The notes beneath the pieces are model-generated. The model saw only the letters and a list, made by a program, of their open reading frames with translations. It was not told the origin of the DNA and did no database searches. Source: Thiobacillus denitrificans (GTDB lineage: Bacteria > Pseudomonadota > Gammaproteobacteria > Burkholderiales > Thiobacillaceae). Taken from it: a stretch of 64,000 nt of DNA. The DNA is taken from positions 1 through 64,000 of the forward strand of contig DYIY01000009.1 of assembly GCA_020723405.1 (NCBI GenBank), given 5' to 3'. Position numbers and translations under genes: made by a program. Positions 11,256 to 26,192 of this stretch are shown piece after piece. Position 1 is the stretch's first letter; each line of letters opens with the position of its first letter.

Positions 11256-13701
11256 GGGCTTGCTCCTCGCCGGGCAAGGTGAAACAGAAGGTGGCGCCTT
11301 GTTCCGAATTGGCTTCCAGCCAGAGGCGGCCGCCGTGGGCCTCGATCAGGCTCTGGCTGATGCCCAGGCCGATGCCCAGGCCGTTGGGCTTGGTGGTGTA
11401 GAAGGGTTCGAACAGCCGATCCGCAGTTTCGGCAGGACAGCCGCGGCCGCCGTCGCCGATGCAGACGCGCACTGCGCGGCGGGCGTGGCGGCTGGCCTTG
11501 ATGGCCAGGCGGCGGCGTTCTTCCGGCAGGCCGGCCATGGCGTCCATGCCGTTGCGCACCAGGTTGAGCATGACCTGTTCGATCTGGATCGGGTCCACCC
11601 GCACGCGCGGCAGGTTGCGGGCAATCTCCAGGCTGACGCAGATCTGGTTCTGGCGCACCTCGGATTGGATGAAGCCGGCCACCTCGTGGATCACGTCGCT
11701 CAGCTTGACGCGCTGCCGGGGCGCGTTGCCCTTGCGGGCGAAATTGCGCAGGCGGCGGAAGATTTCGCTGCCCAGCTCCGCCTGGCGGACCACCTGCTCC
11801 AGGCCGTAGCGGATCCGCTCGGTCTGGCCCTCGCCGGATTGCAGGATGCGCAGGCAGGTCTGGGCGTAGGTGGTGATGGCGCAGAGGGGCTGGTTCAGCT
11901 CGTGGGCCAGGCCGGAAGTCATCTCGCCCAGGGTGCTCAGGCGCGCCACGTGGGCCAGTTCGGCCTGGTGCTGGCGGCCGCGCTCTTCAGCCTTGACCAG
12001 ATCGGTGATGTCGTGGCCGGTGGATATGTAATGGGTGATGCAGCCCTGGGCATCCTTGAGCGGGGTGATGGTCTTCTGCTCGTGGAACAGCTCGCCGCCC
12101 TTCTTGCGGTTCACCAGGACGCCCCGGAACACACCGCCGGCACTGATGGTGCGCCACAGCTCGGCATAGAACTTCTCGTCGTGGACGCCGGAGCGGAGAA
12201 AGTAGGTCTTGTGGCCCAGCACCTCCTCCTGCGTGTAGCCGGTGAGCCGTTCGAAGGCCGGATTCACGTATTCGATGCGCCGGTCCAGGTCGGTGATGAT
12301 GACCGAATCGGCGGTCTGTTCCAGGGCGCCGGACAGTTTGCGCATGTGGGCTTCGGCCCGCTCCCGCTGGAGTTCGCCGCCCACCCATTGGGACATGAGC
12401 TTGAGGATTTCCCGGTCGGCTGAGCCGAACGGCTTGGCGCGCGGCGTCTGGCTGGCGAAGCAGAGGGTGCCGTAGAGACCACCGTCCACCTGCACGCGCA
12501 TGCCGATGTAAGCCTCCAGGCCGTGCCGCACGTAGGTGGGGTGGGTGCGCCATTCGGTGCTGGCGGCGTGCTCGAAGGCCACCGGCTCGCCGGAGAACAC
12601 GGTGGAGGCGCAATAGGTCTCCTCCAGATCCTTGCTCACCCCGGCGCTGTATTCGGGATGGTCGCTCACCGCGTCCAGCACCTCGAAGCACTGGCCGTTG
12701 ATATGGGACAGGATGCCGATGGGCAGGCCGAACTGCTCGCAGCCCAGCATGAGCAGGCGGTGCAACTTCTCCTCCAGGCTCAGGGTGGGTGCCGAGCTGA
12801 TCTCGTGGAAGGCGCGCAACACCGTCGCATGCAGGCGCAGTTCCTCCTCGGCCCGTTCCCGTTCCCGCTCCGAGGCGACCCGGTCGGTGACGTCCTGGAG
12901 GATCAGCATGACGCCGCGCTGGCCGGTCCGGTAGGCCAGAGGCGCCGGAGTGACTTCCAGGTAGCGCGACCCCGTGCCGGGTGGGCCCAGTGCCAGGATT
13001 TCCGGCGCCAGCCGCTCCATGGCCTCCAGGCTGCGCTCCAGCAGGTCGCCGAGCCGGGCCCGTTCCGGCCCGGGGAACAGCTCCGCCAGGGGCCGGCCCA
13101 GGGCGCCCCGCTCGCTCACGCCCAGGGTGGCCAGGGCCTGGCGGTTGAGGGTGAGGATGGCGCCGGCCGGGTCCACGGTCAGCACGCCGATGGGGGCGTG
13201 GTCCAGCAACTGGTCCAGGTAGTGGCTGGCCTCGGGTTGCAGCAGGGGCAACTTCTCCAGGCGGATCTGGGCGTTGGCGATGGTGTTGAGGTAGCGGCTG
13301 CGCTGGCGGCGCCGGTCCACCGCGTCGCGGATCGCGGCGGGCAGCTCTTCCAGCTCGGCCACCGACCAGGGCGCCACCTCGTTGCCCAGGAAGGGGCTGA
13401 ACATCAGGGTGCGCTTGAGCTGCGCGCAGCGGGCCGGCGCGCTGAGGATGAGGATGGGCACGTGCTTGTCGTAGGCGTGGATGCGCTGGGCGACCCGCAC
13501 CGGCTCCTCCAGGGCCAGGCCCAGCACCACCGTGTCGGCGGGGCGGCGGCCTTCCTGGAAGGCTTGGTAGAGCCGCTCCTGGCTGGGCAGCGAGACCAGC
13601 TTCAGCGCCGGCTCCAGGTGCCCGCGCAGGGTCGCGGCGAGGGCGTCCTCGATACCCACCAAGTGGATGACGCTGTCCGCCGGGGTGGGGGAGACGGTCA
13701 T
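11227..13701 (-). CDS. Soluble multi-sensor histidine kinase 1 (PAS-GAF-PAS)
   Basis: A protein of 824 residues with no membrane segment. The N-terminal ~125 residues look like a degenerate receiver, followed by a PAS domain (LLDHAPIGVLTVDPAGAIL, ~170-285), a GAF domain (~295-450), a second PAS (ALEQTADSVIITDLDRRIEY, ~460-575), a HisKA domain with the phospho-acceptor in GLAHELNQPLCAI and an ATPase domain (GDGGRGCP, GIGLGISQSLIEAHGG). The layout resembles TodS/StyS/FixL-type sensors of aromatic compounds, redox or oxygen. It starts 5 bases after the dehydrogenase stop and overlaps its regulator. Confidence 0.9.
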   Translation of the reverse strand: MTVSPTPADSVIHLVGIEDALAATLRGHLEPALKLVSLPSQERLYQAFQEGRRPADTVVLGLALEEPVRVAQRIHAYDKHVPILILSAPARCAQLKRTLMFSPFLGNEVAPWSVAELEELPAAIRDAVDRRRQRSRYLNTIANAQIRLEKLPLLQPEASHYLDQLLDHAPIGVLTVDPAGAILTLNRQALATLGVSERGALGRPLAELFPGPERARLGDLLERSLEAMERLAPEILALGPPGTGSRYLEVTPAPLAYRTGQRGVMLILQDVTDRVASERERERAEEELRLHATVLRAFHEISSAPTLSLEEKLHRLLMLGCEQFGLPIGILSHINGQCFEVLDAVSDHPEYSAGVSKDLEETYCASTVFSGEPVAFEHAASTEWRTHPTYVRHGLEAYIGMRVQVDGGLYGTLCFASQTPRAKPFGSADREILKLMSQWVGGELQRERAEAHMRKLSGALEQTADSVIITDLDRRIEYVNPAFERLTGYTQEEVLGHKTYFLRSGVHDEKFYAELWRTISAGGVFRGVLVNRKKGGELFHEQKTITPLKDAQGCITHYISTGHDITDLVKAEERGRQHQAELAHVARLSTLGEMTSGLAHELNQPLCAITTYAQTCLRILQSGEGQTERIRYGLEQVVRQAELGSEIFRRLRNFARKGNAPRQRVKLSDVIHEVAGFIQSEVRQNQICVSLEIARNLPRVRVDPIQIEQVMLNLVRNGMDAMAGLPEERRRLAIKASRHARRAVRVCIGDGGRGCPAETADRLFEPFYTTKPNGLGIGLGISQSLIEAHGGRLWLEANSEQGATFCFTLPGEEQAHVDESRPSA

Positions 13702-13706
13702 GCCCC

Positions 13707-14918
13707 TCAGTCCGACAACAAGGGCTGGCCCAACAGGGCGCGGCCGATCCAGACGCGCAGGATGTCCGTGGTGGGCGACATGAGATGGGCCGCGCGCGCG
13801 TCACGGAGCAGCCGGTGCATGCGCGAGCCGTTGCGATAGCCGATGCCGCCGCTCAGGGTCATGGCCTCGTTGACCAGGTTCACCGCGCAATCCGCCACCT
13901 CCACCTTGGCCGCCATCACCGCCGTCAGGGCGTCCGGCTCGCCCGCGTCGAAGCTGGCGGCGGCATGGTAGGTGAGGCGGCGGGTGCGCTCCAGCACGGC
14001 CCACAGGCTGCCCAGGCGGTGTTGCAGCACGGATGACTGGGCCAGACTGGAACCGGTGTGGGTGTGGTAGCGCCGCACCAGATGGCGCCGCGCCTCTTCC
14101 AGGGCGGTGGTGGCCACGCCCAGGAAGGTCCCGGCCATGGCGATGAGGAAATAGGGCGTGACCACGTTGAAGATGTACCAGATCTGGTCGCCCTCCTTGC
14201 CCAGAAGGTTGTTGCTGGGAATGCGCGCGCCGTGCAGTTCCAGGGTGCGTGAGGAGTTGCCGCGCATGCCCAGGCCATCCCAGTCGGCGCCCCATTTCAT
14301 GCCCTCGCAATCGGCGGGCAGCACCACGCAGGAGAACTGGCCGATGGGCGCCTCCGGCGAGGCGGCCACCGCCGACACCACGTAGGAATCCGCGTGGCCG
14401 CCGTTGGTGACGAAGGTCTTGCTGCCGGTGAGGCGGTACTCCTCGGCGGAGATCGCCTCCAGCGCAGTCTGGGGCAGGTAGAAGTGGGCACCGGTGCCCG
14501 CCTCGCTGAGGGACAGGGTGGTGATGTGGCGGCCTGCGCAGATGGGGGTCAGGAAGCGTTCCTGCTGGTCCGGCGTGGCGTTGGCGGCGATCACCGAGGC
14601 GCCGACGCAATGCATGCCGTAGCAGATGGCGGTGGAGGCGCATTCCTGCCCCAGCAGCTCGCACACCTTGGCGAGGGCCAGCAGGCCGTGGCCGTTGCCA
14701 CCGTAGGCGGTGGGCACCACCAGGCCGCCGAAACCCGCGTTCTGCAGGGCACGGATGCCCGGTTCCGGCCAGCGGGCCTGGGCGTCGATGGCCACCGCGT
14801 TGGGCGCGACCACATCCTTGGCGATTTCCTGGACCTTGTATAACGTAGCCTGCAAATCACTGCCGTGCATGGGAGACACCCGATTCGGTTCGCGGCTGGT
14901 CAGGGGAAGGACCGGCAT
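13707..14918 (-). CDS. Acyl-CoA dehydrogenase family protein
   Basis: A flavoprotein of 403 residues, probably oxidising an acyl-CoA at the alpha-beta bond. Family features are the N-terminal helical domain, STAICYGMHCVGASVIAAN, TGSKTFVTNGGHADSYVV and the C-terminal LSGGIGYRNGSRMHRLLRDARA. Two signatures are off consensus: SEAGTGAHF where SEPxAGSD is usual, and SPTTDILR where GTSEI is usual. It may therefore act on an unusual substrate. The ATG at 14918 has AGGAGG four bases upstream; an in-frame ATG at 14870 lacks a ribosome site. It heads the operon with kinase 1 and regulator 1, so it may be a product-side enzyme of the hydroxylase pathway. Confidence 0.85.
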   Translation of the reverse strand: MPVLPLTSREPNRVSPMHGSDLQATLYKVQEIAKDVVAPNAVAIDAQARWPEPGIRALQNAGFGGLVVPTAYGGNGHGLLALAKVCELLGQECASTAICYGMHCVGASVIAANATPDQQERFLTPICAGRHITTLSLSEAGTGAHFYLPQTALEAISAEEYRLTGSKTFVTNGGHADSYVVSAVAASPEAPIGQFSCVVLPADCEGMKWGADWDGLGMRGNSSRTLELHGARIPSNNLLGKEGDQIWYIFNVVTPYFLIAMAGTFLGVATTALEEARRHLVRRYHTHTGSSLAQSSVLQHRLGSLWAVLERTRRLTYHAAASFDAGEPDALTAVMAAKVEVADCAVNLVNEAMTLSGGIGYRNGSRMHRLLRDARAAHLMSPTTDILRVWIGRALLGQPLLSD

Positions 14919-15086: not shown

Positions 15087-15389
15087 TCAGTGGTGCTCAA
15101 TCAGGGAAAAAGAGAGCACCTTCTCCACCGATTCGATGCGGTTCGCATTGGTGCCCACCACGCAGGAACCCCGCTTGTCGCAGCCCCAGAGATGATAGGC
15201 ACGGAACTCCAGCAGGTCGTTCGGCAACTGCTCGCGATGGGGCATGGCGCGGGAATCCAGGGTCTCGGCGGAGTTTTCCTGGCGCAGGGACTGCTTGATG
15301 CGGGCGATTTCGCCCAGCAGATCCTGGGCGCTGTCGCCGTTCCAGCGGCCCACCACCCGGCCGGTGTTGGTCTTGATTTCGTCGGACAT
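15087..15389 (-). CDS. Unrecognised 100-residue protein
   Basis: I do not recognise this protein. It is 100 residues, soluble, begins MSDEIKTNTGRVVGRWNGDS and has a short Cys-containing segment WGCDKRGSC followed by VVGTNANRIESVEKVL; the C-terminus is IEHH. The ATG follows a GGAG-like site in the 13-base gap after the Nif11-like gene, so the two are one operon under the promoter at 15761-15827. The paired Cys residues and terminal His residues could bind metal or form a disulfide; this is only a possibility. Codon use matches the neighbours, which supports a real gene. Confidence 0.75.
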   Translation of the reverse strand: MSDEIKTNTGRVVGRWNGDSAQDLLGEIARIKQSLRQENSAETLDSRAMPHREQLPNDLLEFRAYHLWGCDKRGSCVVGTNANRIESVEKVLSFSLIEHH

Positions 15390-15402: not shown

Positions 15403-15681
15403 TCAGAAACGGTCGGCGATCATGCGCAGCACGACCTTGGGAATCACCCAGTTGCTGCCCTGCTTCTGTTCCTGTACCGCGATCAGCAGTTCATCGCGGG
15501 AGAAGTGGATGCCGCTGCCGGCCGCCAGTTCCCGGTACAACTTGATGAAGCTTTCCTTGTCCGGCGCGCTGTCCAGTTTTTCCAGCAGTGCCGGATTGTT
15601 CATCACGGCCTCGCCGAAACGCTTGATGTTCTTCTCGAAGGGACGCGCCTGGGCGTCCCGCTCCTGTGCCGCTTGCAACAT
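15403..15681 (-). CDS. Nif11-like small protein
   Basis: A protein of 92 residues. The ATG at 15681 has AGGAG six bases upstream; a longer frame to 15732 has none and would overlap the promoter leader. The central part (FGEAVMNNPALLEKLDSAPDKESFIKLYRELAA, then GIHFSRDELLIAV; read as two segments) follows the Nif11 domain pattern of a helix, NPxLxEKL, and Gly-hydrophobic-x-F-xxxEL. Nif11 domains occur in proteins of nitrogen-fixing bacteria and as leader peptides of RiPP precursors. There is no Gly-Gly cleavage motif and no Cys-rich core, so it is not an obvious RiPP precursor. It is first in an operon that shares its promoter with alkB. Confidence 0.7.
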   Translation of the reverse strand: MLQAAQERDAQARPFEKNIKRFGEAVMNNPALLEKLDSAPDKESFIKLYRELAAGSGIHFSRDELLIAVQEQKQGSNWVIPKVVLRMIADRF

Positions 15682-15760: not shown

Positions 15761-15827
15761 GATTTATACCCAGGGCCGGGCAGGGGAAAAATCCGTAGGT
15801 CTACGATTCGGAGCCCGTACTTCTACG
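15761..15827 (-). promoter_or_regulatory. Promoter with two CGTA-N4-TACG boxes, shared with alkB
   Basis: On the minus strand GATTTTTC (15793-15786) and TATAAATC (15768-15761) are 17 bases apart, as for -35 and -10 boxes. Upstream are two palindromes, CGTAGACCTACG (15805-15794) and CGTAGAAGTACG (15827-15816), whose centres are 22 bases apart, two helical turns. The alkB promoter repeats the same -35/-10 elements with the same spacing and has a box of the same form, so I infer a common activator, probably one of the two FixJ-type regulators. Confidence 0.75.
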
Positions 15828-15845
15828 CACCCCGGGTTCCGTGCT

Positions 15846-16445
15846 TCAGAAATGCATTCCCACCGCAACGCCCACCAGCAGCGGATCCAGGGTCAGGGTC
15901 TCGATCTTGGCGCCGCCGCCGCCGGGCAGCACGTCGGTCTTCAGGTAGAACTTCTTCAGGTCGACGTTGATGAAGTAATCCTTGTTGATGGCGTAGTCGA
16001 ATCCGATCTCCAGCACGCCGCCGGTATCTGCGGGAAACCCGCGCAGGGTGTCGAAGGTGGGGCCGCTCTTGTCGAAGAACACCGTATGGTGGATACCCGC
16101 GCCCACGTAGGGACTGAAAGCCGACTTCGGCATGAAGTGGTATTGCAGCATCAGGTGGAAGGGAGCCATGCTGGCTTTGCCCAGCACCGTGCCACCAGCG
16201 GAGAAGGTGTGGCGGGTGATGCCGGCCGCCGTGTTGAGGGCCAGGTTATCGTTCAGGTGATAGGTCAGGTTGACGATGGGCTTGACCTCGTTGGTGGCGC
16301 TCACGCCCACCACGGGTGACTCGATGTCGGGGCGGATGTTGGTCAGGCCCAGGCTCACGTCGAGCCCCATTCCGGCATAGGACCAGGTGGCGATCGTCGC
16401 CAGGAAAACGCCCAACAGCTTGGGCAACAGGATGGTCTTGTTCAT
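15846..16445 (-). CDS. OmpW-family outer-membrane protein (AlkL-like)
   Basis: A protein of 199 residues with a signal peptide (LLGVFLATIATWSYA), alternating beta strands and a C-terminal GMHF ending in the Phe typical of outer-membrane barrels. The start at 16445 has GAGGAG five bases upstream; the longer frame adds an unlikely Arg-rich leader. OmpW-type eight-strand barrels include AlkL, which lets alkanes and other hydrophobic substrates cross the outer membrane. Its place inside an AlkB-type hydroxylase island supports that role. VGVSATNEVKPIVNLTYHL and PYVGAGIHHTVFF are the family-like segments. Confidence 0.85.
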   Translation of the reverse strand: MNKTILLPKLLGVFLATIATWSYAGMGLDVSLGLTNIRPDIESPVVGVSATNEVKPIVNLTYHLNDNLALNTAAGITRHTFSAGGTVLGKASMAPFHLMLQYHFMPKSAFSPYVGAGIHHTVFFDKSGPTFDTLRGFPADTGGVLEIGFDYAINKDYFINVDLKKFYLKTDVLPGGGGAKIETLTLDPLLVGVAVGMHF

Positions 16446-16819
16446 TGCGGCTCCTCGTAGCGACGGTAAGGGTTGGGTGCCCCGCCGCGAAGGCGGGGCG
16501 CCTGCCACCGATTACAGGCGCCATGACGGGGAGCGTAAATTGGGTTCTTTACGGGGCGGACACCGTATTGCTACCTGATCTGCACGGGGATACCCGGAGC
16601 CGCCAGCGGCCAGCCTGCCGCTCCCGGTCTTCCCGACCGGCCGATAAGTACTTTCCCTCATCGCCCTGCTTCCCTGCGCTCTGCATAATTCCGGTGCCAG
16701 CCGTCGCCCGGTGGGCGCTTGAGTTCCCACCCGCCAGATCCCAGTCAGCCCTGAGGGGCCCGGCCGGGGTGCCGACAGGCCAGGAAACCCGCCTTCAACG
16801 CCACCGAAAGGAATCCCCC
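16446..16819. promoter_or_regulatory. Divergent control region between the AlkL-like and Fae-like genes
   Basis: This 374-base gap has no gene. It holds two overlapping perfect hairpins near the AlkL side: GCCCCGCC/GGCGGGGC (16479-16499) and GGCGCCTG/CAGGCGCC (16497-16522). Next come an inverted repeat CGTAAA-N8-TTTACG (16534-16553), and CGTATTGCTACC (16564-16575), which matches the CGTR-N4-YACG operator at all but the last base. These could be sites for the island's FixJ-type regulators, but no matching -35/-10 pair is visible here. Confidence 0.5.
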
Positions 16820-17353
16820 TTGAGCAAGATCGTCTTCAAATCCGGAGAAGCCACCGTCCTCGCGCGGGAGGGGCAGTTCACCGACGCCATGCCGGAGATC
16901 CTGGTGGGCAGCGTGGACGGCCCGGTGGGCCACGCTTTCGCCACCATGATGGGCCAGAGTGCCGGCCACACCCGCATGTTTGCCATCCGTGCCTGCAACC
17001 AGCAGGTACGCCCGGCCACCCTGATGGTGCCCAAGGTCACCATGAAGTCCATGGCCTATGTGGATCTGTTCGGCGGGGTGGTGCAATCCGCCACCGCCGA
17101 CGCGGTGCTGGATTGCGTCATCGAGGGCGTCCTGCCCCGGGACCAGGTCAACGACCTGTGCATCGTCAGCCTGGTGTGGATCGATCCCCGTTGCGCCACC
17201 GATGCCAACCTGGACCACCAGGATCTCTACCGCACCAACTACGAGGCCACCAAGCTGGCCATCCGGCGCGCCCTCAACGACGAGCCCTCCATCGACGAGC
17301 TGATCGCCAACCGCCACGTCATCAAGCACGACATGTACGACCCGGAAGCCTGA
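16820..17353 (+). CDS. Formaldehyde-activating enzyme homologue lacking the catalytic His
   Basis: A protein of 177 residues. It starts at a TTG with AAGGA seven bases upstream; no ATG or GTG fits the family's N-terminus. True Fae condenses formaldehyde with tetrahydromethanopterin. The match is clear: GSVDGPVGHAFA, PATLMVPKVT, VIEGVLPRDQVNDLCIVSLVW and NYEATKLAIRRAL. However the catalytic His of Fae (in its AHIDLLIG segment) aligns with Met24 here (AMPEILVG). It is therefore more likely one of the Fae paralogues of unknown role. It is the only enzyme gene of the island on the plus strand, with a ferredoxin gene behind it. Confidence 0.85.
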   Translation: MSKIVFKSGEATVLAREGQFTDAMPEILVGSVDGPVGHAFATMMGQSAGHTRMFAIRACNQQVRPATLMVPKVTMKSMAYVDLFGGVVQSATADAVLDCVIEGVLPRDQVNDLCIVSLVWIDPRCATDANLDHQDLYRTNYEATKLAIRRALNDEPSIDELIANRHVIKHDMYDPEA

Positions 17354-17506
17354 ACGGCTCCGCCGCCCTCACCCCGTAGAACTCCGGGTATGGGGGCGGA
17401 TTTCCCCCAATAGGCCAGGCGCCCGCTGCGCCCGACAATGCCTGCCAGGCTCCCGCACCGGGCGGGGCCATCCCTCAGCCGAGACCAGCCAAGGAAGGAA
17501 GGCACC

Positions 17507-17683
17507 ATGAAAATCGTTTGGAATGACCAGGCCTGCTGCCACAGCGGCAACTGCGTGAAGACCCTGCCCCAGGTGTTCAAGGTGGAGAACGGCCAGTTCC
17601 TGATCCAGCCGGAAAATGCCAGCGACGATCAGGTCCGCCAGGTGGTGGCCGCCTGTCCCGGCAAGGCCCTGAAAATCGAGTAG
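17507..17683 (+). CDS. Small divergent ferredoxin (Fer4_19 type)
   Basis: A protein of 58 residues. The ATG at 17507 has a strong AAGGAAGGAAGG site. The pattern CCHSGNCVKTLPQVF ... VVAACPGKALKIE matches the single-cluster, divergent 4Fe-4S family that has three cysteines in the usual places; an extra Cys adjoins the first and could supply the fourth ligand. It may carry electrons for a neighbouring enzyme. It lies 153 bases after the Fae homologue on the same strand and is followed by a terminator. Confidence 0.85.
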   Translation: MKIVWNDQACCHSGNCVKTLPQVFKVENGQFLIQPENASDDQVRQVVAACPGKALKIE

Positions 17684-17705
17684 GCGTCCCTGAGCGCACT
17701 CCCCC

Positions 17706-17735
17706 GGGCGGACGGATCCTTCCAGTCCGCCCTTT
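17706..17735 (+). terminator. Terminator after the ferredoxin gene
   Basis: GGGCGGAC and GTCCGCCC are perfect 8-base arms around 11 bases, followed by TTTGTT. It ends the Fae-ferredoxin unit. Confidence 0.65.
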
Positions 17736-17824
17736 GTTGCCCCTGCGTTCCGCCGCCCCGCAGATGGGTCAGGCCCTCGCTGCCGGACACGGCGTCGAGA
17801 ATCTGCCGATGCCTGCGCTGGGGT

Positions 17825-18220
17825 TCAGGCGCCCGCGCCCAGAAATGCCAGGTAGCCGGCGGCGTCGAGCAGGCCGGCCTCGCTGATGGGCGCGTCCAGC
17901 CGGACGCGCAGCAGCCAGCCGTCGCCGTAGGGTTCCCGGTTGACCAGGGCGGGGTTGCCGCGCAGGGCGGCGTTGACCTCCAGCACCAGGCCGCCGGCGG
18001 GGGCGATGAGGTCGGACACCGCCTTGCCGGATTCGATGGTGCCCAGGGGCGCGCCCTGGCGGATGAGGGTGCCCACCCGGGGCAGATCGACGTACATCAC
18101 CGTCCCCAGGCTCTGCTGGGCGTGGTGGTTGACGCCCACCAAGGCCTCGCCGCCGTCCAGCGGCTTCAGCCAGAGGGCGTCCCGGTGGTAGAGGCGGTCG
18201 TCAGGATAGTGTGGGTGCAT
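17825..18220 (-). CDS. GcvH-like lipoyl carrier protein
   Basis: A protein of 131 residues that should carry lipoate on the Lys of ESGKAVSDLIAP, in the hairpin turn typical of the glycine-cleavage H protein; GLVLEVNAAL and DGWLLRVRL follow as in the family. The start at 18220 (MHPHYPDDRLY) overlaps the lpd end by 20 bases, so the two are coupled. No gcvT or gcvP is present, so this is not a glycine-cleavage operon. GcvH-like proteins paired with Lpd also occur as LbpA in sulfur oxidation, but no hdr-like genes are seen. The partner reaction is unknown. Confidence 0.87.
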   Translation of the reverse strand: MHPHYPDDRLYHRDALWLKPLDGGEALVGVNHHAQQSLGTVMYVDLPRVGTLIRQGAPLGTIESGKAVSDLIAPAGGLVLEVNAALRGNPALVNREPYGDGWLLRVRLDAPISEAGLLDAAGYLAFLGAGA

Positions 18221-19613
18221 GGGCGTTCCCTTGCTTGAGGGGCTTGTGCACGGCCTGGCCCAGGGCGTCCTCGGCGGCTTCCAGCAGGGCCTCGGACAGG
18301 GTGGGGTGGGCATGCACGGTCTGGGTGATGGCGTGCACCGTGGCACCCTGGCGGATGAGCACCGCCGCTTCGTGGACCATGTCGGAGGCGTGGGCGCCGA
18401 TGATGTGCGCGCCCAGCAGGCGGCCCGTGACCCGGTCGGCCACCACCTTGGCCAGGCCAGTCAGTTCGCCCATGGCCTGGGCCTTGCCCAGGCCGCGCAG
18501 GTCGAAGCGGCCGCAGCTCACGGCGTGGCCCCGCTCCAGGGCGGCGGTTTCGCTCAGGCCGACGCAGCCGATCTCGGGCATGGTGAACACCGCCCAGGGG
18601 ATGGCGGCCTCGTCCAGGGGCTCGGGATCCATGTCCAGGGCGTGTTCCACCGCCACCCGGGCCTGGGCCGAGGCGGCGTGGGCCAGGGCCAGGCGGCCGT
18701 TGACGTCGCCCACGGCGTAGAGGCCGGGCAGGCTGGCGCGCAGGAAGTCGTCGGTGACGATCTCGCCGCGGGGGCCCGGTTCCACCCCGGCTTCGGCCAG
18801 GCCCAGGCCGGCACTGTTGGGGCGGCGGCCCACGGCCACCAGGGCGCGCTCCGCGCCGGCCACGGTCCGTCCCCCGGACAGGGCGGCCACGCCGCCGGGT
18901 CCGATCTCCAGGCTTTCCACGGGACAGCCGTGGAGGAACTCGATGCGCCGCTTGCGCATTTCTCGCCAGACCACGGCGGCGATCTCGTGGTCCAGGAAGG
19001 GCAGCGGCCGGTCCCCCAGGCCGGCGACGGTGACCTCCACCCCCAGGGCGTTGAGGATGAAGGCGAACTCGCAGGCCACCACGCCGTCGCCGACGATGAG
19101 CAGGGAGGCGGGCAGCGTGTCCCACTTGAGCAGGTCGTCGCTGGTGGCGACGCGGTCGCCGTCGATGGGGAAATTGTCAGGGCGGACGGGAGAGGAACCG
19201 GTGCAGACCAGCACCGCGTCCGCATGGATGGGCTCGCCGTCGCCCACCCGGACGTGGTGGCCGTCGAGGATACGGCCGTAGCCCTGGATCAGGGCCACCT
19301 TGCGGTCCGCCATGAGGCCGCCGATGCCCCGCTCCAGCAGGTCGATGACCTGGCCGGCCTTGTCGCGCAGGCAGACCCAGTCGGCTGCCAGGCTGCCGTC
19401 CAGGCGCAGGCCGTAGGTCGCAGCCCGGCGCATCTTCTCCAACAGGTTGCAGGATTCCACCAGGGTCTTGGTGGGAATGCAGCCCCGGTGCAGGCAGGTG
19501 CCGCCCAGAGGATGGGGGTCGATGAGGCTGACCCGGGCGCCCAGGGCGGCGGCGTGGGAAGCCGCGACATAGCCGGCCGGGCCGCCGCCGAGGATGGCGA
19601 GGTGTTTGGACAT
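18201..19613 (-). CDS. lpdA: Dihydrolipoamide dehydrogenase
   Basis: An FAD disulfide oxidoreductase of 470 residues that reoxidises dihydrolipoyl groups with NAD+. It has the FAD motif ILGGGPAGYVAA, the redox-active pair in GGTCLHRGCIPTK (Cys40 and Cys45), a second nucleotide motif LLIVGDGVVACEFA, YAVGDVNGRLALAHAA, and the C-terminal catalytic pair in HAHPTLSEALLEAAE. Its partner is most likely the GcvH-like protein that overlaps it. OsmC lies 82 bases upstream in the same direction, so thiol chemistry is a theme of this operon. Confidence 0.93.
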   Translation of the reverse strand: MSKHLAILGGGPAGYVAASHAAALGARVSLIDPHPLGGTCLHRGCIPTKTLVESCNLLEKMRRAATYGLRLDGSLAADWVCLRDKAGQVIDLLERGIGGLMADRKVALIQGYGRILDGHHVRVGDGEPIHADAVLVCTGSSPVRPDNFPIDGDRVATSDDLLKWDTLPASLLIVGDGVVACEFAFILNALGVEVTVAGLGDRPLPFLDHEIAAVVWREMRKRRIEFLHGCPVESLEIGPGGVAALSGGRTVAGAERALVAVGRRPNSAGLGLAEAGVEPGPRGEIVTDDFLRASLPGLYAVGDVNGRLALAHAASAQARVAVEHALDMDPEPLDEAAIPWAVFTMPEIGCVGLSETAALERGHAVSCGRFDLRGLGKAQAMGELTGLAKVVADRVTGRLLGAHIIGAHASDMVHEAAVLIRQGATVHAITQTVHAHPTLSEALLEAAEDALGQAVHKPLKQGNAHAPTLS

Positions 19614-19695
19614 GGGGACTCCGATGGGGGTGGGAGGTAGGGGGTGGCGCTGGCCGGTCGGTGGGCCGGGGCCTTCCCCCTCCGGGCTGCCGCGC

Positions 19696-20238
19696 CTACG
19701 CCGCCAGCGGCTCGGCCTCCAGCACCTTCCCGTTCAGCTTGACGCTGCCGTGCACTTCGATGGCGCGCACCAGGGTATCCAGCACCGGGCAATGGCTCTC
19801 CACGGTCTGCACCAGTTTCCGCAGGGTTGCCTCGTCGGCGGTGCTGCTCACCTCGGTTTCGAAGATGACTTTCTGGTAACCGGCGGGAATGGCGGGGTCC
19901 AGGCCGAACAGGCCGCGCAGGTCCAGGTAGCCGCGCAGGTTGACCTTGACGCCGTCGAGCTGCACGCCCATGACCGAGGCGTAGGCGCTGTACATGATCT
20001 CCTGGCAGGCGCCCAGGGCCACCAGCAACAGTTCCACCGGGTTGGCACCGGCGTCCTTGCCCCCCAGTTCCGGCGGTTCGTCCACGATGATGGGGGCGAA
20101 CTCGCGCACCTGGGCGCAGCAGCGCACGTCCTCTTCCAGTTGGGTATCGGCGCGGAACACCACCTTGGCAGCGCCGGGGTTGCCCTGGATGCCGGCGATG
20201 GCCTGCATCAGGGCGGCTTTGACGGATTCTTGCGACAT
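19696..20238 (-). CDS. OsmC/Ohr-family peroxide-reducing protein
   Basis: A protein of 180 residues. The ATG at 20238 has GGAG upstream; the longer frame is not supported. OsmC-family motifs are NPVELLLVALGACQEIMYSAYA and, near the C-terminus, VQTVESHCPVLDTL, which supply the two cysteines that reduce organic hydroperoxides. Ohr/OsmC enzymes are re-reduced by lipoylated proteins and Lpd, and exactly such a pair (lpd and GcvH-like) follows. This makes a peroxide-defence module for the oxygen chemistry of the hydroxylase a reasonable inference. Confidence 0.88.
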   Translation of the reverse strand: MSQESVKAALMQAIAGIQGNPGAAKVVFRADTQLEEDVRCCAQVREFAPIIVDEPPELGGKDAGANPVELLLVALGACQEIMYSAYASVMGVQLDGVKVNLRGYLDLRGLFGLDPAIPAGYQKVIFETEVSSTADEATLRKLVQTVESHCPVLDTLVRAIEVHGSVKLNGKVLEAEPLAA

Positions 20239-20363
20239 GGCCTGTCTCCTTCGGGAAATTTGCCGTGATCCGGAACAGCCGGCCACGTAGGAAGGATTAA
20301 AGGCTGGCCGCGCGCCCCGGAACATTCGGTCAAACCGCCGCTGCGGAGAGGGATTTCCCTGTG

Positions 20364-21044
20364 TCAGACCCGTATTTGATCCTGGTCGCGGGAACGGGCG
20401 GGCTCGGGCGTGTGGTCGAATTCCAGTTCCTCCCGGCCCTGTTCCAGTTGCATGAACATGCGCACCAGTTCCGACAGGGTCCGCGCCTTCATCTTCTCCA
20501 TGGCATTGGCCCGGTGGGCCTCCACGGTCTTGGGGCTGAGGCCCAGGGCGATGGCGATGACCTTGTTGGCTTTGCCGTTCACCACCATCGCCGCGACTTC
20601 CCGCTCGCGCGGGCTGAGCATGAGATAGGCGGCCTGGATGCGCGCCAGCTTGCGCCGCTCGAGGCTGCGCTGGGCGCAGATCTCCAGAGCGCGCTGGATG
20701 CTGTCCAGCAGGACCTGGTCGTTGTAGGGCTTCTGCAGGAAGTCCACCGCGCCGCCGCTCATGGCCCGCACCGCCATGGGGATGTCACCGTGGCCGGTGA
20801 CGATGATGACAGGCAGGCACCAGCCCCGCCCACGCAGGTGTTTCTGCAACTCCAGGCCGCTCATGCCCGGCATGCGCACGTCCAGTACCAGGCAGCCCGG
20901 CATCTTGCCGTCGTAGGCGCTCAGGAAATCCTGGGCGGAAGCGTGGCAGTGCACCCGGTGGCCCACGGATTCCAGCAGCCAGCGGAGGGATTCCCGCGCA
21001 GCCTGGTCGTCGTCCACCACGAAAACGGTCTGTGCTTCATTCAT
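20364..21044 (-). CDS. FixJ/NarL-family response regulator 2
   Basis: A protein of 226 residues: receiver (VVDDDQAARES, Asp in VLDVRMPGMSG, VTGHGD, KPY) and LuxR-type helix-turn-helix (LSPREREVAAMV, LSPKTVEAHRANAMEKM). The start at 21044 overlaps the end of kinase 2 by 8 bases. It closely resembles regulator 1 (10605-11255) in both domains, so the island has a duplicated sensor-regulator pair. The recognition helices differ (LGLSPKTVEAHRAN against LGLSVRTVEGHRAK), so the two may bind related but distinct sites. Confidence 0.92.
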   Translation of the reverse strand: MNEAQTVFVVDDDQAARESLRWLLESVGHRVHCHASAQDFLSAYDGKMPGCLVLDVRMPGMSGLELQKHLRGRGWCLPVIIVTGHGDIPMAVRAMSGGAVDFLQKPYNDQVLLDSIQRALEICAQRSLERRKLARIQAAYLMLSPREREVAAMVVNGKANKVIAIALGLSPKTVEAHRANAMEKMKARTLSELVRMFMQLEQGREELEFDHTPEPARSRDQDQIRV

Positions 21045-22329
21045 GGTCAAAGGTCTCCTCCATGCCGGGCAGGTTGAATCGAAAGACGAGGCCCGGACCG
21101 GTCTCGTTGGGGCGGACGCCAAGGGTGCCGCCGTGGGCCTCGACGATGGATCGGCAGATGGCCAGACCCATGCCCATGCCGTTGGCCTTGGTGGTGAAAA
21201 ACGGTTCGAAGATGGGGTTCAGCATGTCCCCGGGCAGGCCGGGTCCGCTGTCGCCCACTTCCACGGTGGCAACGCCGTTCGCGTCGGGGAACACGCGGAT
21301 GCGCAACAGGCGCCGCCCGGCGTCCACTTCGTCCATGGCTTCCACCGCGTTGCGCGCCAGGTTCAGGATGACCTGCTCGATCTGGATCGCGTCCCCTGGC
21401 ACCGGCGCCATGCCCGCCACCACTTCCGTCGCAATGCGGACCTGATGCTGGCTGGCTTCCGGCTCGGCGATCAGCAGGGCCTCGCGCAGCACGTCGGCCA
21501 AATCCACCGGCCGGGGCGGCGCCTCATCCTTGCGCACGAACCTGCGCAGGCTGCGGATGATGTCGCCGGCCCGGTCCGCCTGGCTGCATACCTGTTCGAA
21601 GGCACGGGCCAATTCATCCGCCGAATCCTTGCCGGCGCGCAGGCGGCGCAGACAACCGCGCGAATAGTTGGCAATGGCGGCCAGGGGCTGGTTGAGCTCG
21701 TGGGCCAGGCCCGAGGCCATCTCGCCCATGGTGTTCACCCGTGCCGCGTGGGCCAGCTCCCGGTAATGCAGGCGCACCTCGTCCTCGGCCCGCTTGCGCG
21801 CGGTGATGTCCCGGGTGATGCCGAGCAGGGCAACAACCTGGCCGCGCGCGTCGGTGAGCGGTACCGCGTGGGTCTCCATCCAGCGCCGGCGGCCTTTCAG
21901 GCTGATGATCTGGAATTCCAGGATGCCGCTTTCGCCCTGGAACACCTTCTCGCTCAGGGCTTGATAGGCGGCGCGGAATTCCGGCGCAATGACCCGGTAG
22001 ACCGAGGTGCCGACGATCTCCTCCGGCTGGCCGGCCTCCACCAGGCGCAGGCCGGCCGGGTTCATCTCCAGCAGGATGCCGTCCAGGGTTTGCAGCTTCA
22101 CGCATTCCGGCTCGGAGGCGATGATCTGGCGCAATCGCTGTTCGTTGTCCGCAAGCCGCTCCTCGGCCCGGCGCCGTTCCGCGATCTCGCCTTCCAGCAC
22201 CCGCTTGGAGTGGCGCAGGCGCAGGTTGAGCCGGACCACGTAAGCCAGCACGGAGGCCATGAGAATCAGGGCGGCCATGAGGGTGGCCCAGGAAGGGAGG
22301 GCGGCAGCGACGGTGTCTTGCAATGGCAT
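21037..22329 (-). CDS. PAS histidine kinase 2, membrane anchored
   Basis: A protein of 430 residues from the ATG at 22329; the frame stays open upstream but the extra residues look random and no good ribosome site marks either start. One membrane segment (WATLMAALILMASVLAYVV) is followed by a coiled stretch, a PAS domain (~75-200; RWMETHAVPLTDARGQVV, LLGITRDIT), HisKA (GLAHELNQPLAAIANYSRG) and an ATPase domain (GDSGPGLPG, MGMGLAICRSIVEAHGG). The kinase core is very like that of kinase 1, but the sensor is short and membrane linked. Confidence 0.9.
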   Translation of the reverse strand: MPLQDTVAAALPSWATLMAALILMASVLAYVVRLNLRLRHSKRVLEGEIAERRRAEERLADNEQRLRQIIASEPECVKLQTLDGILLEMNPAGLRLVEAGQPEEIVGTSVYRVIAPEFRAAYQALSEKVFQGESGILEFQIISLKGRRRWMETHAVPLTDARGQVVALLGITRDITARKRAEDEVRLHYRELAHAARVNTMGEMASGLAHELNQPLAAIANYSRGCLRRLRAGKDSADELARAFEQVCSQADRAGDIIRSLRRFVRKDEAPPRPVDLADVLREALLIAEPEASQHQVRIATEVVAGMAPVPGDAIQIEQVILNLARNAVEAMDEVDAGRRLLRIRVFPDANGVATVEVGDSGPGLPGDMLNPIFEPFFTTKANGMGMGLAICRSIVEAHGGTLGVRPNETGPGLVFRFNLPGMEETFDHE

Positions 22330-22490
22330 GGCGCGATCTGGGTTCCAGCAGCGGAGGGCGGGACGCGATCCAGCCAAGCAAGAAACGCACCGCTTGGCCT
22401 GATCGGCCCGGAAGCCAGGAACGGTGCGGGGTTGGAGCGGGGCCACCCCGGTCCGGGCGGTATGGGATGCCGGCCGGCGTGACAGTCCGG

Positions 22491-22546
22491 CAGGACAAAC
22501 CGTCCTGTTTTTTGCACAGGGGTTGGAGGGTAGGGTTCTTCCTACC
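22491..22546. other. Two hairpins between reductase and kinase 2 genes
   Basis: CAGGAC-AAACC-GTCCTG followed by TTTTTT (22491-22513) looks like a plus-strand terminator, although no plus-strand gene ends here. GGTAGG-N6-CCTACC (22529-22546) is a perfect 6-base-arm palindrome. Both lie in the 242-base gap upstream of kinase 2 and may be a leader or operator. No gene is seen in the gap. Confidence 0.5.
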
Positions 22547-22571
22547 TGTCTCCCCTATCGTGGACAGGCGT

Positions 22572-23642
22572 CTAAGCGCGGCCGCCGGGCAGATGGGAAG
22601 CGTCCAGGAACTTGTCGAAGAAGATGTTCTTCTCGCACAGGCCTGCGCCGGTGAGGCATTTCACGGCGCTGTCGATCATGGCCGGCGGCCCGCACAGATA
22701 GGCATGGCTGTCCGGAATGTCGGCGAAGCGTTCCAGGGAGAGGATTTCCGTGCAATGGCCGCGCAGGCCCTCCCAGCCGCTGTCGTCCGGCTCCCGGGAC
22801 AGGACCGGCAGGAAGTTGAAGTGGCCGTTGCCCTTGGCCTTGATCTGCTGCATCTCTTCCAGGCAATAGAGATCCTCCCGTGTGCGTGCGCCGAAGACAT
22901 AGGTCACCTTGCGCTGGAAGCCCTGGGAGGAAACCTGTTCCAGCAAGGCCTTGATGGGTGCCATGCCGCTGCCGCCGGCGATGCACAGCATGGGCGCGCT
23001 GGAATTCCGCAGCCAGAAGGAACCATAGGGACCGGTCACCGTGACCTTCTCGCCTTCCCGGTTGGCCGCGTGCAGCCAGCCGGTCATCTGGCCGTTGGGA
23101 ACATGGCGGATGTGGAAACTGACGTGGCGTCCATCCTCGTTCTCGGGCGCGCTGGCGAAGGAGTAGGAGCGGGGCTTGTCGATCACGCCGGGCACTGCCA
23201 GTTCAGCGTACTGGCCCGCCAGATAGGGGGGCAGGGACTCGTCCAGATGGATGCGGACTTCCTGGATGTCGTGGGTGAGCTGGCGGGTGCTGGCGATGCG
23301 GCCGGACACGGAGCAGGCCGCCGACAGGGCGACACCGGGCTGGTCCATCTCGATCTCGATTTCCACGTCGCTGCGCAGGCAGGTCTGGCAGGTGAGGATC
23401 ATGCCCGCGTCCATTTCCTTGTCGTCCAGCACGTAGCTGAAGTCGTTGAGGGGCTTGATCTTGCCGCTCAGCAGCCGGGAGCGGCACTGGCCGCAGGAGC
23501 CCACGCGGCAGTTGTGGGGCCAGGGCAGGCCCGCCTCCAGGGCGGCCTTGAGCAGGTTGTCGCCGGCTTTGACCTGGATGCTTTTGCCGCAGGGCGACAG
23601 TTTCGCGGTGAAAGGCCCCTTGCGGGCGAACAGTCCGAACAC
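22572..23642 (-). CDS. 2Fe-2S ferredoxin-NAD(P)H reductase (XylA-like) for the hydroxylase
   Basis: A protein of 356 residues from a GTG with AAGGAG seven bases upstream. The N-terminal ~95 residues are a plant-type 2Fe-2S domain (HNCRVGSCGQCRSRLLSG, then LTCQTC). FAD binding follows (RSYSFAS), and NAD binding (CIAGGSGMAPIKALLEQ, YLCGPPAMID). The order ferredoxin-FAD-NAD is that of XylA, the reductase of xylene monooxygenase, rather than the separate rubredoxin and rubredoxin reductase of the classic AlkB system. It is third in the alkB operon, 50 bases after the haemoglobin gene. Confidence 0.92.
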   Translation of the reverse strand: MFGLFARKGPFTAKLSPCGKSIQVKAGDNLLKAALEAGLPWPHNCRVGSCGQCRSRLLSGKIKPLNDFSYVLDDKEMDAGMILTCQTCLRSDVEIEIEMDQPGVALSAACSVSGRIASTRQLTHDIQEVRIHLDESLPPYLAGQYAELAVPGVIDKPRSYSFASAPENEDGRHVSFHIRHVPNGQMTGWLHAANREGEKVTVTGPYGSFWLRNSSAPMLCIAGGSGMAPIKALLEQVSSQGFQRKVTYVFGARTREDLYCLEEMQQIKAKGNGHFNFLPVLSREPDDSGWEGLRGHCTEILSLERFADIPDSHAYLCGPPAMIDSAVKCLTGAGLCEKNIFFDKFLDASHLPGGRA

Positions 23643-23692
23643 GGCACGACTCCTTGTTCCCGGCGGGCGCCGGCCAGCGGCGCCCTGTTGGC

Positions 23693-24079
23693 TTACTGGT
23701 AGACCACGTCGCCCTTCAGCGAGTAAAGGATGCAGAGGATCTCGTCCTTCTCCCGCTTGCCCACGTGGTGCATGTCCAGGGCCTTGAGCACGTCGTCGCA
23801 CACCGCCACGAACTCGGTGTCGTTGATGTTCATGCCCTTGTGGGCCGCGATCATGTCCTTGCCGGTGTAGGTCTCCGGGCCGCCGAAACCGGCGCAGCAC
23901 ATCTCGGTGACCAGGCGCTTGACGTTGGCCGGGTCGCTGTTGGCGTAGCGCTTGGCGATGAGTGGATTGCTGACGTGGTTGTTCCAGATGTCCTCGACGA
24001 TGGCCTCGATGCCCGGGCGGCCGCCCAAACGTTCATACAGAGTGGCGGTGGCGAGGGCGGCTTCGGTGGGTGCGTTCAT
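23693..24079 (-). CDS. Group 1 truncated haemoglobin
   Basis: A protein of 128 residues. The ATG at 24079 has AGGAGA upstream. The pattern LYERLGGRPGIEAIVED, with the proximal His80 in DMIAAHKGMN and a glycine pair in AGFGGPETYTGKDM, is that of trHb group 1. At the distal side the usual Phe-Tyr (B9-B10) pair is Ile-Trp here, so the Tyr that stabilises bound oxygen is missing. It sits between the hydroxylase and its reductase; a role in oxygen supply, oxygen sensing or NO removal for the hydroxylase is inferred. Three cysteines (60, 61 and 94) are unusual for the family. Confidence 0.9.
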   Translation of the reverse strand: MNAPTEAALATATLYERLGGRPGIEAIVEDIWNNHVSNPLIAKRYANSDPANVKRLVTEMCCAGFGGPETYTGKDMIAAHKGMNINDTEFVAVCDDVLKALDMHHVGKREKDEILCILYSLKGDVVYQ

Positions 24080-24134
24080 GACTGTCTCCTGGTTGGTTGC
24101 CGGCCGCCCCGCGCGGGGCCGGCCGGCGGGGGGA

Positions 24135-25415
24135 TCACATGGCGTAGTTGACTTGCAGGCGGCGTCCGCTGATATCGGCGGGATCCACCTCGTAGCCCAC
24201 CTTGCGGTTGATCTCCTGGGCGATCCTGCGCTCCTCGGGGCTGGCGAAGTCCCGGTCCCAGATGGCCAGCTTCCGCTTGTAGACGGCATGCCACAGGGGC
24301 GGCACCAGGGCCAGCACGAACTCGGTGTAGTAGCCGATCATCGCGTTGGGTGCGCCGCCGGGGGTGGAAGGCTGGCCGACGCTGGACAATTCCCAGAAGT
24401 GGGTTTCACCGCGATCGTGGTGGTCCGCCTGGCGGCCGATCTCGATGAAGGCCCAACTGGTGAAGGCGTTGTCGTTGTCCCAGGAGTGGCGATACTCGAT
24501 GGGTTGGCCCTTCACCCGGATCAAGCCGTAGTGCTCCATGTAGTTGAGGGCTTCCAGTTCGAAGTTGGAGATGACCCACACCACCAGCATCGCCGCCAGG
24601 CCGATCAGGGCGCCGTCCATGCCACCGCCCAGGTAGCCGGCGCCGGCAAACAGGGAGACGGTCGGGATGCTCATCAGGTAGCCGCGAATCCAGCGGTTGG
24701 ACAGGGACAGGAAGGACTTGCCCAACCGCTTGAGGCGCTTCTTCTCGGTCATGATGCCGAAGTAGGACTGGCCGATGTGGGAGATGAGGAAGTGGGTGTA
24801 CAGGCTGCGGCCGCGCGGCGCGGTGGCCGGGTCGGTGTCGTCGCCCATCTTGTTGCCTTCCGGGCCCATCCAGGCGCGCCCCAGTTCCAGGTGATGGTTG
24901 TAGACGTGGGCGAAGCAGAAGTGGGCGGTGCCGGAAAGCGACATCATCCAGCGCGAGATCAGGAAGCCGATGCCCTTGGTGTGCGACAGCTCATGCCCGA
25001 ACATGATGCCGAGACCCTGATGCAGGCCGGCGCCGATGGTGGCGATGACCAGTTGCAGGCCGGTGATGCCGCTTTGGTACTCATAGCCGTTCCACACCAT
25101 GGTCTCGATTGGCGCGCCGGAGACGTATTGGAAAATCCGCCAGGCCAGGGCAACCTGGAGGCCGACGAAACTCACCAGTTGGAAGTACATCATCAGGTTC
25201 AGCAGCGCCCCGGAGCCCACCGGCTGGCCGCGCTGGTCGGTGGCGGCGCCCTTGGTGTGCAACGCCGAGGTGAGGGTATCCATGACGATGTTGAAGCCGA
25301 AGATCGCCATGCCGATCCAGACCCAGTCGCCCCCCTTGAGGATGCCGGCCAGGCACGCCAGGATGCCCAGCGGCGTATACAGATACACCAGATGTCCAAA
25401 AATCAATTTGCGCAT
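24135..25415 (-). CDS. Membrane di-iron hydroxylase, AlkB/XylM family
   Basis: An integral membrane protein of 426 residues that should hydroxylate an alkyl or methyl group with O2. Conserved histidine boxes are HELSH (141-145), HVYNHH (170-175), NYMEHYG (291-297; His295), RHSWDND (309-315) and DHH (331-333). The last box reads GRQADHHDRGETHFWEL, which is closer to XylM (NHADHH type) than to the LQRHSDHHAHP of alkane 1-monooxygenases, so the substrate may not be an n-alkane. AAGGAG lies seven bases before the ATG. It heads an operon with the haemoglobin and a XylA-like reductase. Confidence 0.9.
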   Translation of the reverse strand: MRKLIFGHLVYLYTPLGILACLAGILKGGDWVWIGMAIFGFNIVMDTLTSALHTKGAATDQRGQPVGSGALLNLMMYFQLVSFVGLQVALAWRIFQYVSGAPIETMVWNGYEYQSGITGLQLVIATIGAGLHQGLGIMFGHELSHTKGIGFLISRWMMSLSGTAHFCFAHVYNHHLELGRAWMGPEGNKMGDDTDPATAPRGRSLYTHFLISHIGQSYFGIMTEKKRLKRLGKSFLSLSNRWIRGYLMSIPTVSLFAGAGYLGGGMDGALIGLAAMLVVWVISNFELEALNYMEHYGLIRVKGQPIEYRHSWDNDNAFTSWAFIEIGRQADHHDRGETHFWELSSVGQPSTPGGAPNAMIGYYTEFVLALVPPLWHAVYKRKLAIWDRDFASPEERRIAQEINRKVGYEVDPADISGRRLQVNYAM

Positions 25416-25501
25416 TTTTCGTCTCCTTCAGTCCACGAAACCGTGAGTGATCGCCGACGGGACCGGCCCCGCCAAACTCTTGGCCGGCCGCCGTCTGGAC
25501 T

Positions 25502-25556
25502 GATTTATACGCGGCGGGAATGGGCGGAAAAATCAGGAGAAATACGTGAAACCACG
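25502..25556 (-). promoter_or_regulatory. alkB-operon promoter with a CGTG-N4-CACG box
   Basis: On the minus strand GATTTTTC (25534-25527) and TATAAATC (25509-25502) are 17 bases apart, exactly as at 15761-15793. The palindrome CGTGGTTTCACG (25556-25545) lies 10 bases upstream of GATTTTTC. Relative to the Nif11-like promoter, where boxes start 0 and 22 bases from that element, the box here starts 11 bases away, so all three lie on the same face of the helix. The start codon is about 80 bases downstream of the expected transcript start. Confidence 0.75.
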
Positions 25557-26192
25557 TGGTTATACCTATGCCCCGACTGGCGCCCGGACCATGGGTGAAA
25601 TGCGCCTGGCCGGCGGTGGACGCGGGCGTGCCGGCCCTGGCGGCCTGTCCTTCTGTCCTTGAGTGGGTGGCGCCGCTTACCCACGCAACGGCCTCCGCCG
25701 CAGTCAACCGGGTCCACAGGAAGCGGTGGGGGGCGTGCGGCTCCATCTTCAGAGCCGGGACGTGGGGCCCGGCCGCGTACAGCACAGGGCGGTTTTTGCC
25801 GGGCCCGCGAAATGCCGGCTGCTGCTCCTCAAGTGCGCCACACGCCGGGCCAAGAGGGTGGCGGCCTGGGGGACGCAATCCGCCCCGGGACGGACCGGCC
25901 CTCTGAAGCTGGGGGTCTTGGCCGAACAGGTCTTCACGCCGAGCCGGATGGGCCTGAGGCTGACCGGACTGTTGCACAGCAAAGGTGAGAAAAAAGGCGG
26001 CGCAGTTCCTTACCGCTGGACCAGGAGTGGGAACGGGCCATGTCGGGCCTGGGCAAGGCCGCCTGCTGGCGGATGAGCCTCCGGCTGGAGGCGATGAACC
26101 CGTGGTCCGGGGCAACCACCCGGCCTCTGGCCGAAGCCATCGGCTTCATGCAAAACAAGAGGCTGGACGTGGTGCCCAGCTTCTGTGTTGTC
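25557..26192. other. Non-coding stretch between the alkB promoter and tRNA-Arg
   Basis: About 640 bases without a gene I recognise. Several open frames of 60-140 codons exist on both strands, but none has a ribosome site or a recognisable sequence, and they overlap one another. The stretch may be the eroded remnant of genes at the edge of the island next to a tRNA. I found no copy of the tRNA end that would mark an attachment site. Confidence 0.5.

Follow-up and report, generated by a model that had tools for sequence, protein, structure and literature searches.

The DNA analysed here (the window) comprises the first 64 kilobases (kb) of contig DYIY01000009.1 of Thiobacillus denitrificans (assembly GCA_020723405.1; 42 contigs, 4,154,183 bases) and carries a gene module built around an AlkB-type membrane monooxygenase, with two similar promoters and a set of short palindromes upstream of them. 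The genes and elements listed below lie on the minus strand. The alkB gene (24135-25415) is followed by genes for a truncated (Bac_globin) haemoglobin (23693-24085) and a Fer2-FAD-NAD reductase (22572-23723, start approximate). A second operon begins with nif11 (15403-15681), which encodes a small Nif11-domain protein, and continues with sp100 (15087-15389), encoding a 100-amino-acid protein without a Pfam or NCBIfam match, a gene for an acyl-CoA dehydrogenase family protein (13707-14918), HK1 (11227-13701), encoding a PAS/GAF histidine kinase with a FixL-like kinase core, and FixJ1 (10605-11255), which encodes a response regulator with receiver and GerE domains, ends the operon and overlaps HK1 by 29 base pairs (bp). 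The window also contains ompW (15846-16445), for an outer-membrane OmpW-family protein, and the gene of a second FixJ-type regulator, FixJ2 (20364-21044).

Both operons are preceded by the same promoter-like composite, GATTTTTC-N17-TATAAATC, which is present in exact form at 15761-15793 before nif11 and at 25502-25534 before alkB, as a preliminary description of this DNA had reported. The -35-like element GATTTTTC occupies 15786-15793 (nif11) and 25527-25534 (alkB), and the -10-like element TATAAATC occupies 15761-15768 and 25502-25509, respectively. The genome scan proposed in that description revealed no scatter of unrelated copies: these two are the only exact ones in 4.15 megabases (Mb), joined by three further matches with three mismatches each when up to three were allowed. 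The backward control pattern of the composite gave no match in the same 4.15-Mb genome, and about 4e-5 exact copies would be expected from base composition. The two promoters are real and have one common architecture. The palindromic look of GATTT...AAATC within the composite is incidental, given that relatives have GGTTACCC, GATTACTG and similar sequences at this place.

Upstream of the composite lie copies of the palindrome CGTR-N4-YACG, whose quality is expressed here as matches to its eight fixed letters. Strict copies occur at three places only in the window, 15794-15805, 15816-15827 and 25545-25556. The first two are the proximal operator of nif11 (CGTAGACCTACG, 8/8), which abuts the -35-like element, and the distal operator of nif11 (CGTAGAAGTACG, 8/8). 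The third, CGTGGTTTCACG (8/8), was the operator originally named before alkB; it overlaps two conserved sites, a distal operator at 25555-25566 (GGTATAACCACG, 7/8) and a proximal operator at 25535-25546 (CGTATTTCTCCT, 6/8), the latter again abutting the -35-like element. With regard to the offsets of 0, 22 and about 11 bases first given, CGTAGACCTACG and CGTAGAAGTACG do start 0 and 22 bp from the -35-like element, but CGTGGTTTCACG ends 10 bp from GATTTTTC; with gaps of 0, 22 and 10, the proposal that all offsets are multiples of 11 bp does not hold.

To follow these elements in other genomes, a scan for AlkB yielded 21 pattern-matching stretches, of which 11 loci with context were kept as relatives; the window, the 11 relatives and a further locus, L096, form the 13-locus promoter comparison. 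Before nif11, all 13 loci have two sites, of which the distal one scores 7/8 or 8/8 and the proximal one at least 6/8; they are spaced 22 bp apart in 12 loci and 21 bp in L018. When every register was scored across the 11 relatives, the means for nif11 were 7.27 of 8 at -22, 7.18 at 0 and 1.55 at -11. Before alkB, the proximal site reaches at least 6/8 in all 13 loci, and 10 of the 13 have tandem sites (distal 7/8 or 8/8), invariably 20 bp apart. Over eight relatives, the alkB means are 7.88 at -20, 7.00 at 0 and 6.38 at -10; the corresponding values in the window are 7, 6 and 8. An 11-bp lattice was therefore rejected, in view of the low nif11 mean at -11 and of the alkB registers, which peak at -20 and 0 and, less strongly, at -10. 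The register of CGTGGTTTCACG thus falls between two better-conserved sites, and four of its eight scored positions are common to the flanking sites, so that a mean of about 5.4 is expected from base composition without any conservation of its own. CGTGGTTTCACG is possibly an additional operator in this genome and is not the best conserved one.

The remaining promoter elements are conserved along with the operators. Across the 23 promoters with tandem sites (13 nif11 and 10 alkB), the first four letters of the -35-like element next to the proximal site read RRTT in 22, the exception being the nif11 promoter of L023. The -10 element lies 25 bases past the proximal site, or 26 in L020. In alkB promoters it contains TATAA in 11 of the 13 loci, and TATAAAT followed by A or C is found in nine of the 10 with tandem sites. 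With near-identical loci down-weighted, the distal core carries 1.51 bits of information per position over the 23 promoters (its N4, 0.82), the proximal core 1.28 (its N4, 0.34), the -35-like element 1.25 and the -10 element 1.14, compared with 0.20 for the sequence upstream, 0.25 for the spacer and 0.18 for the sequence downstream. This concentration of information in the elements rather than the flanks points to selection on the elements and not to general likeness.

A promoter matrix was trained on relatives only, with the window, the ompW promoters and the gammaproteobacterial alkB promoters of L020, L021 and L023 outside the training set. Its three top-scoring places in the window are the promoters of nif11 (53.7), alkB (47.0) and ompW (18.5), whereas 100 Markov-shuffled 64-kb sequences read on both strands (200 strand scans) gave a mean of -0.4, a standard deviation of 3.4 and a maximum of 15.3. 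In G123, a genome found through HK1 and likewise outside training, the top matches are both promoters (54.1 and 44.2), and the next scores 9.9; since G123 resembles L015 and L016, this test is independent of training and not of descent. Leave-one-cluster-out scans, in which one training row (L022 alkB) was set 5 bp off (the window scores above come from the corrected row), placed the nif11 promoter within the top two ranks in all 11 loci and did the same for the alkB promoter in the eight with tandem alkB sites.

Specificity at genome scale was assessed with a profile, R1, built from an alignment (A1) in which the L022 alkB row was trimmed and which omits the three gammaproteobacterial alkB promoters. 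Per genome, the best 150 of 207-554 first-look candidates were scored, so that weak sites such as that of ompW in the window can be missed. At E (expect value) <= 10, R1 found nothing in the genome of the window beyond the two known places. The 11 module genomes gave 19 matches at E <= 3.3e-6, all of them module promoters, and the next match stands at 0.073; because the promoters matched are members of the model, the informative part is the lack of other strong matches. In 22 same-genus genomes, none with AlkB at E <= 0.001 and seven with completeness below 90%, only three weak matches appeared, the best at 0.109. In the genomes searched, the sites are confined to the module. The earlier view that the shared elements define a regulon is supported by their restriction to module promoters in the own genome and by the lack of any match stronger than E 0.1 in the same-genus genomes.

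A third promoter of this kind lies before ompW. The preliminary description had listed a near-match, CGTATTGCTACC at 16564-16575, before the gene of a Fae homologue; read on the minus strand, it is GGTAGCAATACG, the distal site of the ompW promoter, which ranks third in the window. The upstream region reads GGTAGCAATACG-N10-CGTAAAGAACCC-AATTTACG-N17-TGTAATCG on the minus strand, with a weak proximal operator (CGTAAAGAACCC, 16542-16553) and a promoter core, AATTTACG-N17-TGTAATCG, at 16509-16541, leading to the ompW start at 16445. RATTTACR-N17-TGTAAT is present in all seven ompW upstream regions examined (window, L015-L019 and L024), and the operator sites before this core vary in spacing and quality. 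By tblastn, ompW was not found in the stretches of L020-L023, L025 and L096. The ompW gene probably belongs to the regulon. Fae was rejected as a target, with no site at up to one mismatch in three Fae upstream regions of 260 bases each (L015, L016 and L018; a fourth, in L024, is truncated where the locus stops).

As for the protein that binds these sites, one of the two FixJ-type regulators of the island had been proposed. A FixJ-type protein still appears the best candidate, and linkage to the module would narrow the choice to FixJ1 (10605-11255). The pair HK1-FixJ1 occurs in all 11 relatives and in G123, in the same module as both promoters. FixJ1 has the domains of a FixJ/NarL-type response regulator (PF00072, 106.6 bits; PF00196, 61.4 bits) and is the only product among the module genes with a Pfam DNA-binding domain, and the adjoining HK1 is a PAS histidine kinase with HisKA and HATPase domains, as in a two-component pair of the FixLJ type. 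The FixJ1 segment SVRTVEG[HY]RA is invariant in 11 aligned sequences (L016 and L096 stand outside the alignment).

The module keeps its composition from host to host. The order nif11, sp100, dehydrogenase, HK1, FixJ1, alkB, globin and reductase is consecutive on one strand in all 11 relatives, and sp100 adjoins nif11 in each of them. Relative to L024, the 16 mapped window genes have a circularly permuted order that is cut between FixJ1 and alkB, with GcvH-Fer4-Fae joined to ompW; this comparison excludes the genes between GcvH and Fer4 of L024. As a result of the permutation, the two promoters are 10 kb apart in the window, compared with about 5.3 kb elsewhere. L015 and L016 show, instead, an inversion of the block that runs from osmC-Lpd-GcvH to HK2 and ompW. 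Beside osmC, the window encodes a GcvH-like lipoyl protein and a dihydrolipoamide-dehydrogenase-like protein (17825-19613, minus strand); the former may be a lipoate-binding protein of sulfur oxidation rather than of glycine cleavage. AlkB was detected in seven of 101 relatives (E <= 0.001) and HK1 in nine of 117 family genomes, its own included (E <= 1e-150; best eight first-look candidates per genome scored). Because this occurrence is patchy and the hosts are both beta- and gammaproteobacterial, we infer horizontal transfer of the module. The L019 record is named as a Rhizobium sp. metagenome-assembled genome; its contig number and coordinates agree with those of G140, in the Thiobacillus thioparus family and genus group (g6), and the name looks wrong.

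The enzyme itself resembles solved alkane 1-monooxygenases (8sbb, E 1.9e-22), and its histidine motifs HELSH, NHH, EHYGL and ADHH align with HELGH, GHH, EHYGL and SDHH. Classical AlkB receives its electrons via rubredoxin. There is no rubredoxin among the module genes scanned, and the reductase of the module is of the Fer2-FAD-NAD type, so that its electron path probably differs from the classical one. Among ten proteins encoded in the flanks of L022, L025 and L017 are a DsbD-like protein, a copper chaperone, an AhpC/TSA-type thioredoxin-fold protein, a metallo-beta-lactamase fold and a sulfate permease; they hint at sulfur chemistry and decide nothing on the substrate.

It is likely that FixJ1 binds the tandem operators and activates the alkB and nif11 operons, and probably ompW, with regulation of its own synthesis. 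In the proposed mechanism, a cue would be sensed by the PAS/GAF kinase HK1 and lead to phosphorylated FixJ1, two dimers of which would occupy the paired CGTR-N4-YACG sites, separated by about two turns of the helix. If the first T of TATAAA is numbered -12, these sites would lie at about -49 to -38 and at -71 to -60 (nif11) or -69 to -58 (alkB). FixJ1 would then recruit ordinary sigma-70 polymerase to promoters whose -10 is good (in the window) and whose -35 is poor. This would switch on alkB-globin-reductase, probably ompW, and nif11-sp100-dehydrogenase-HK1-FixJ1, the last of which would close a positive loop. A poor -35 with sites at about -44 and -64 before it is the usual layout for an activator. 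The site positions and the poor -35 are most simply read as activation by two FixJ1 dimers; we infer FixJ1 binding, activation rather than repression, the number of dimers, the signal and the sigma factor.

Several observations weigh against this proposal. TATAA is found at the -10 place in just five of the 13 nif11 promoters, and the proximal ompW site of the window is weak. The gammaproteobacterial alkB promoters of L020, L021 and L023 have proximal sites of 8, 8 and 7 of 8 but no distal site at -20 (4, 2 and 4 of 8), and in the leave-one-cluster-out scans they ranked third (9.6), third (19.3) and second (14.0), respectively. FixJ1 scores 224.4 bits against NCBIfam PRK09390, the model of FixJ proper, which is below its cut-off of 255. 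Finally, all seven ompW loci also carry FixJ2, whose recognition segment is similar to that of FixJ1 (SPKTVEAHRA in the window, SPKT[VI]E[AV][HY]RA in five FixJ2 sequences and SPRTVEVHRA in FixJ of Sinorhizobium meliloti), so that the two regulators could share sites, and linkage is not proof. The similar recognition segment and the presence of FixJ2 in all ompW loci, together with the position of FixJ2 between alkB and ompW in the window, speak for FixJ2 as the binder, alone or with FixJ1. FixJ2 is not preferred, and we regard its binding as unlikely: orthologues (72-74% identity) occur in six of the 11 module genomes, and the five that lack one at the level of at least 72% all keep the nif11 operators. 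Two genomes, G106 and G107, have a FixJ2 homologue of 58-59% elsewhere, whereas in G108 (Methylobacillus), G109 and G111 (Parasulfuritortus) no protein other than FixJ1 exceeds 50% identity to FixJ2 at E <= 1e-40, and the operators are kept. Moreover, a second type of palindrome, AGGGAAANCCCT, is situated immediately before osmC, and past FixJ2, in the window (20349-20360, minus strand), L018 (15134) and L024 (15029), and is a candidate FixJ2 operator that seems a better FixJ2 site than the tandem operators. A further copy of AGGGAAANCCCT precedes ompW in L024 (3658, minus strand). Upstream of the HK2-FixJ2 genes of L017, L018, L019 and L024, dyads of AGTGTCA...TGTGACA or TGACAT were noted by eye and are unlike either operator. 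At L021:14155-14200, tandem CGTATTTCTACG and CGTATTCGCGCG, 21 bp apart, precede an osmC gene that adjoins a distant (39%) FixJ2-like gene, with a score of 28.5.

The same sites could instead serve FixJ1 as a repressor that holds both promoters until a signal releases it, since polymerase might also be blocked by a proximal site directly next to the -35. This is improbable in light of the activator-like layout described above; FixJ is, furthermore, known as an activator. S. meliloti FixJ protects -69 to -44 and -57 to -31 of fixK (PMC4999443). A regulator of another family, encoded outside the module, is less probable still. The flank genes are mostly unannotated, the scan having covered the 10 flank proteins of three loci, which leaves such a protein some room; against it stand the DNA-binding domain unique to FixJ1 within the module and the occurrence of the sites only alongside the module, since an unlinked regulator would be needed in gammaproteobacterial hosts and in Methylobacillus as well as in Thiobacillus relatives. 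Chance or recent duplication has almost no likelihood as the source of the likeness between the two promoters. Part of their identity may be coincidental, as GATTTTTC is identical in both window promoters and not in relatives; however, their N17 spacers are not the same, and relatives keep the architecture at both places.

The regulatory arrangement favoured here, FixJ1 acting on tandem operators, is partly similar to several known systems. As with FixL-FixJ and fixK, a PAS kinase is paired with a FixJ-type regulator, and two upstream regions are involved (two protected regions in fixK, two sites here). The HK1 kinase core matches FixL fusion structures. The selected motif of S. meliloti FixJ is GTAGTTTCCC (PMC4999443), to which the proximal sites GTATTTTTCCG, GTAGTTTTCCG and GTATTTCTCCT are close, although the likeness is partial; an S. 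meliloti stretch with a published FixJ site has AACCCAATTT in common with the ompW promoter of the window. As a direct matrix match, S. meliloti fixK was rejected (best score 2.5 in 28 kb, below the null maximum), and the local likeness remains. A CSNAATWT element of fixK promoters has been described (PMC4999443), and the window has CGGATTTT (nif11, 7/8), CCCAATTT (ompW, 8/8) and a 6/8 match at alkB. This likeness was given little weight, in view of the alkB value and of the ompW promoters of L015 and L017, which by eye fail the first letter. The rhizobial FixJ regulon differs in having, before fixK, an imperfect palindrome of 16-18 bp in place of the 12-bp CGTR-N4-YACG core, and here the sites are 20-22 bp apart and serve an AlkB-type module.

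Among solved structures, 1yio is the best relative of FixJ1 (190 bits), a chain that we take to be StyR, and StyR-annotated records are 48.5% identical. StyR controls the catabolic operon for styrene; the StyS-StyR system differs in its target genes. Local regulation of an AlkB-type monooxygenase also recalls AlkS, AlkR and AlkX, from which the present system differs in its two-component FixJ-type regulator. AlkR is of the AraC type. In passages of a review of hydrocarbon regulators, the alkB regulators named are AlkS, which works via a positive feedback loop, AlkR and the TetR-type AlkX, and the word FixJ is absent from the main text (PMC8784404). Full-text searches of one literature library, judged from titles and the starts of abstracts, returned no paper on the module or its regulation; the papers listed, one of them on dimethyl sulfide monooxygenases, were judged unrelated on the same basis. 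The regulon is solid and of a conventional kind, and apparently undescribed.

In a broader and more tentative picture, which we hold to be possible without favouring it, the module may be a portable, self-regulated AlkB-globin-reductase island with private operators, which would move between beta- and gammaproteobacteria, several of which oxidise sulfur. Its own FixJ-type switch would sense the substrate or a linked redox cue, and the fixed 20- versus 22-bp difference in spacing would set different responses for enzyme and regulator. For this AlkB-type module, the analysis provides a defined operator, a promoter layout and a candidate regulator. The module's own promoters could serve as reporters in a search for the compound that induces it, and further members can be traced through the operator pair.

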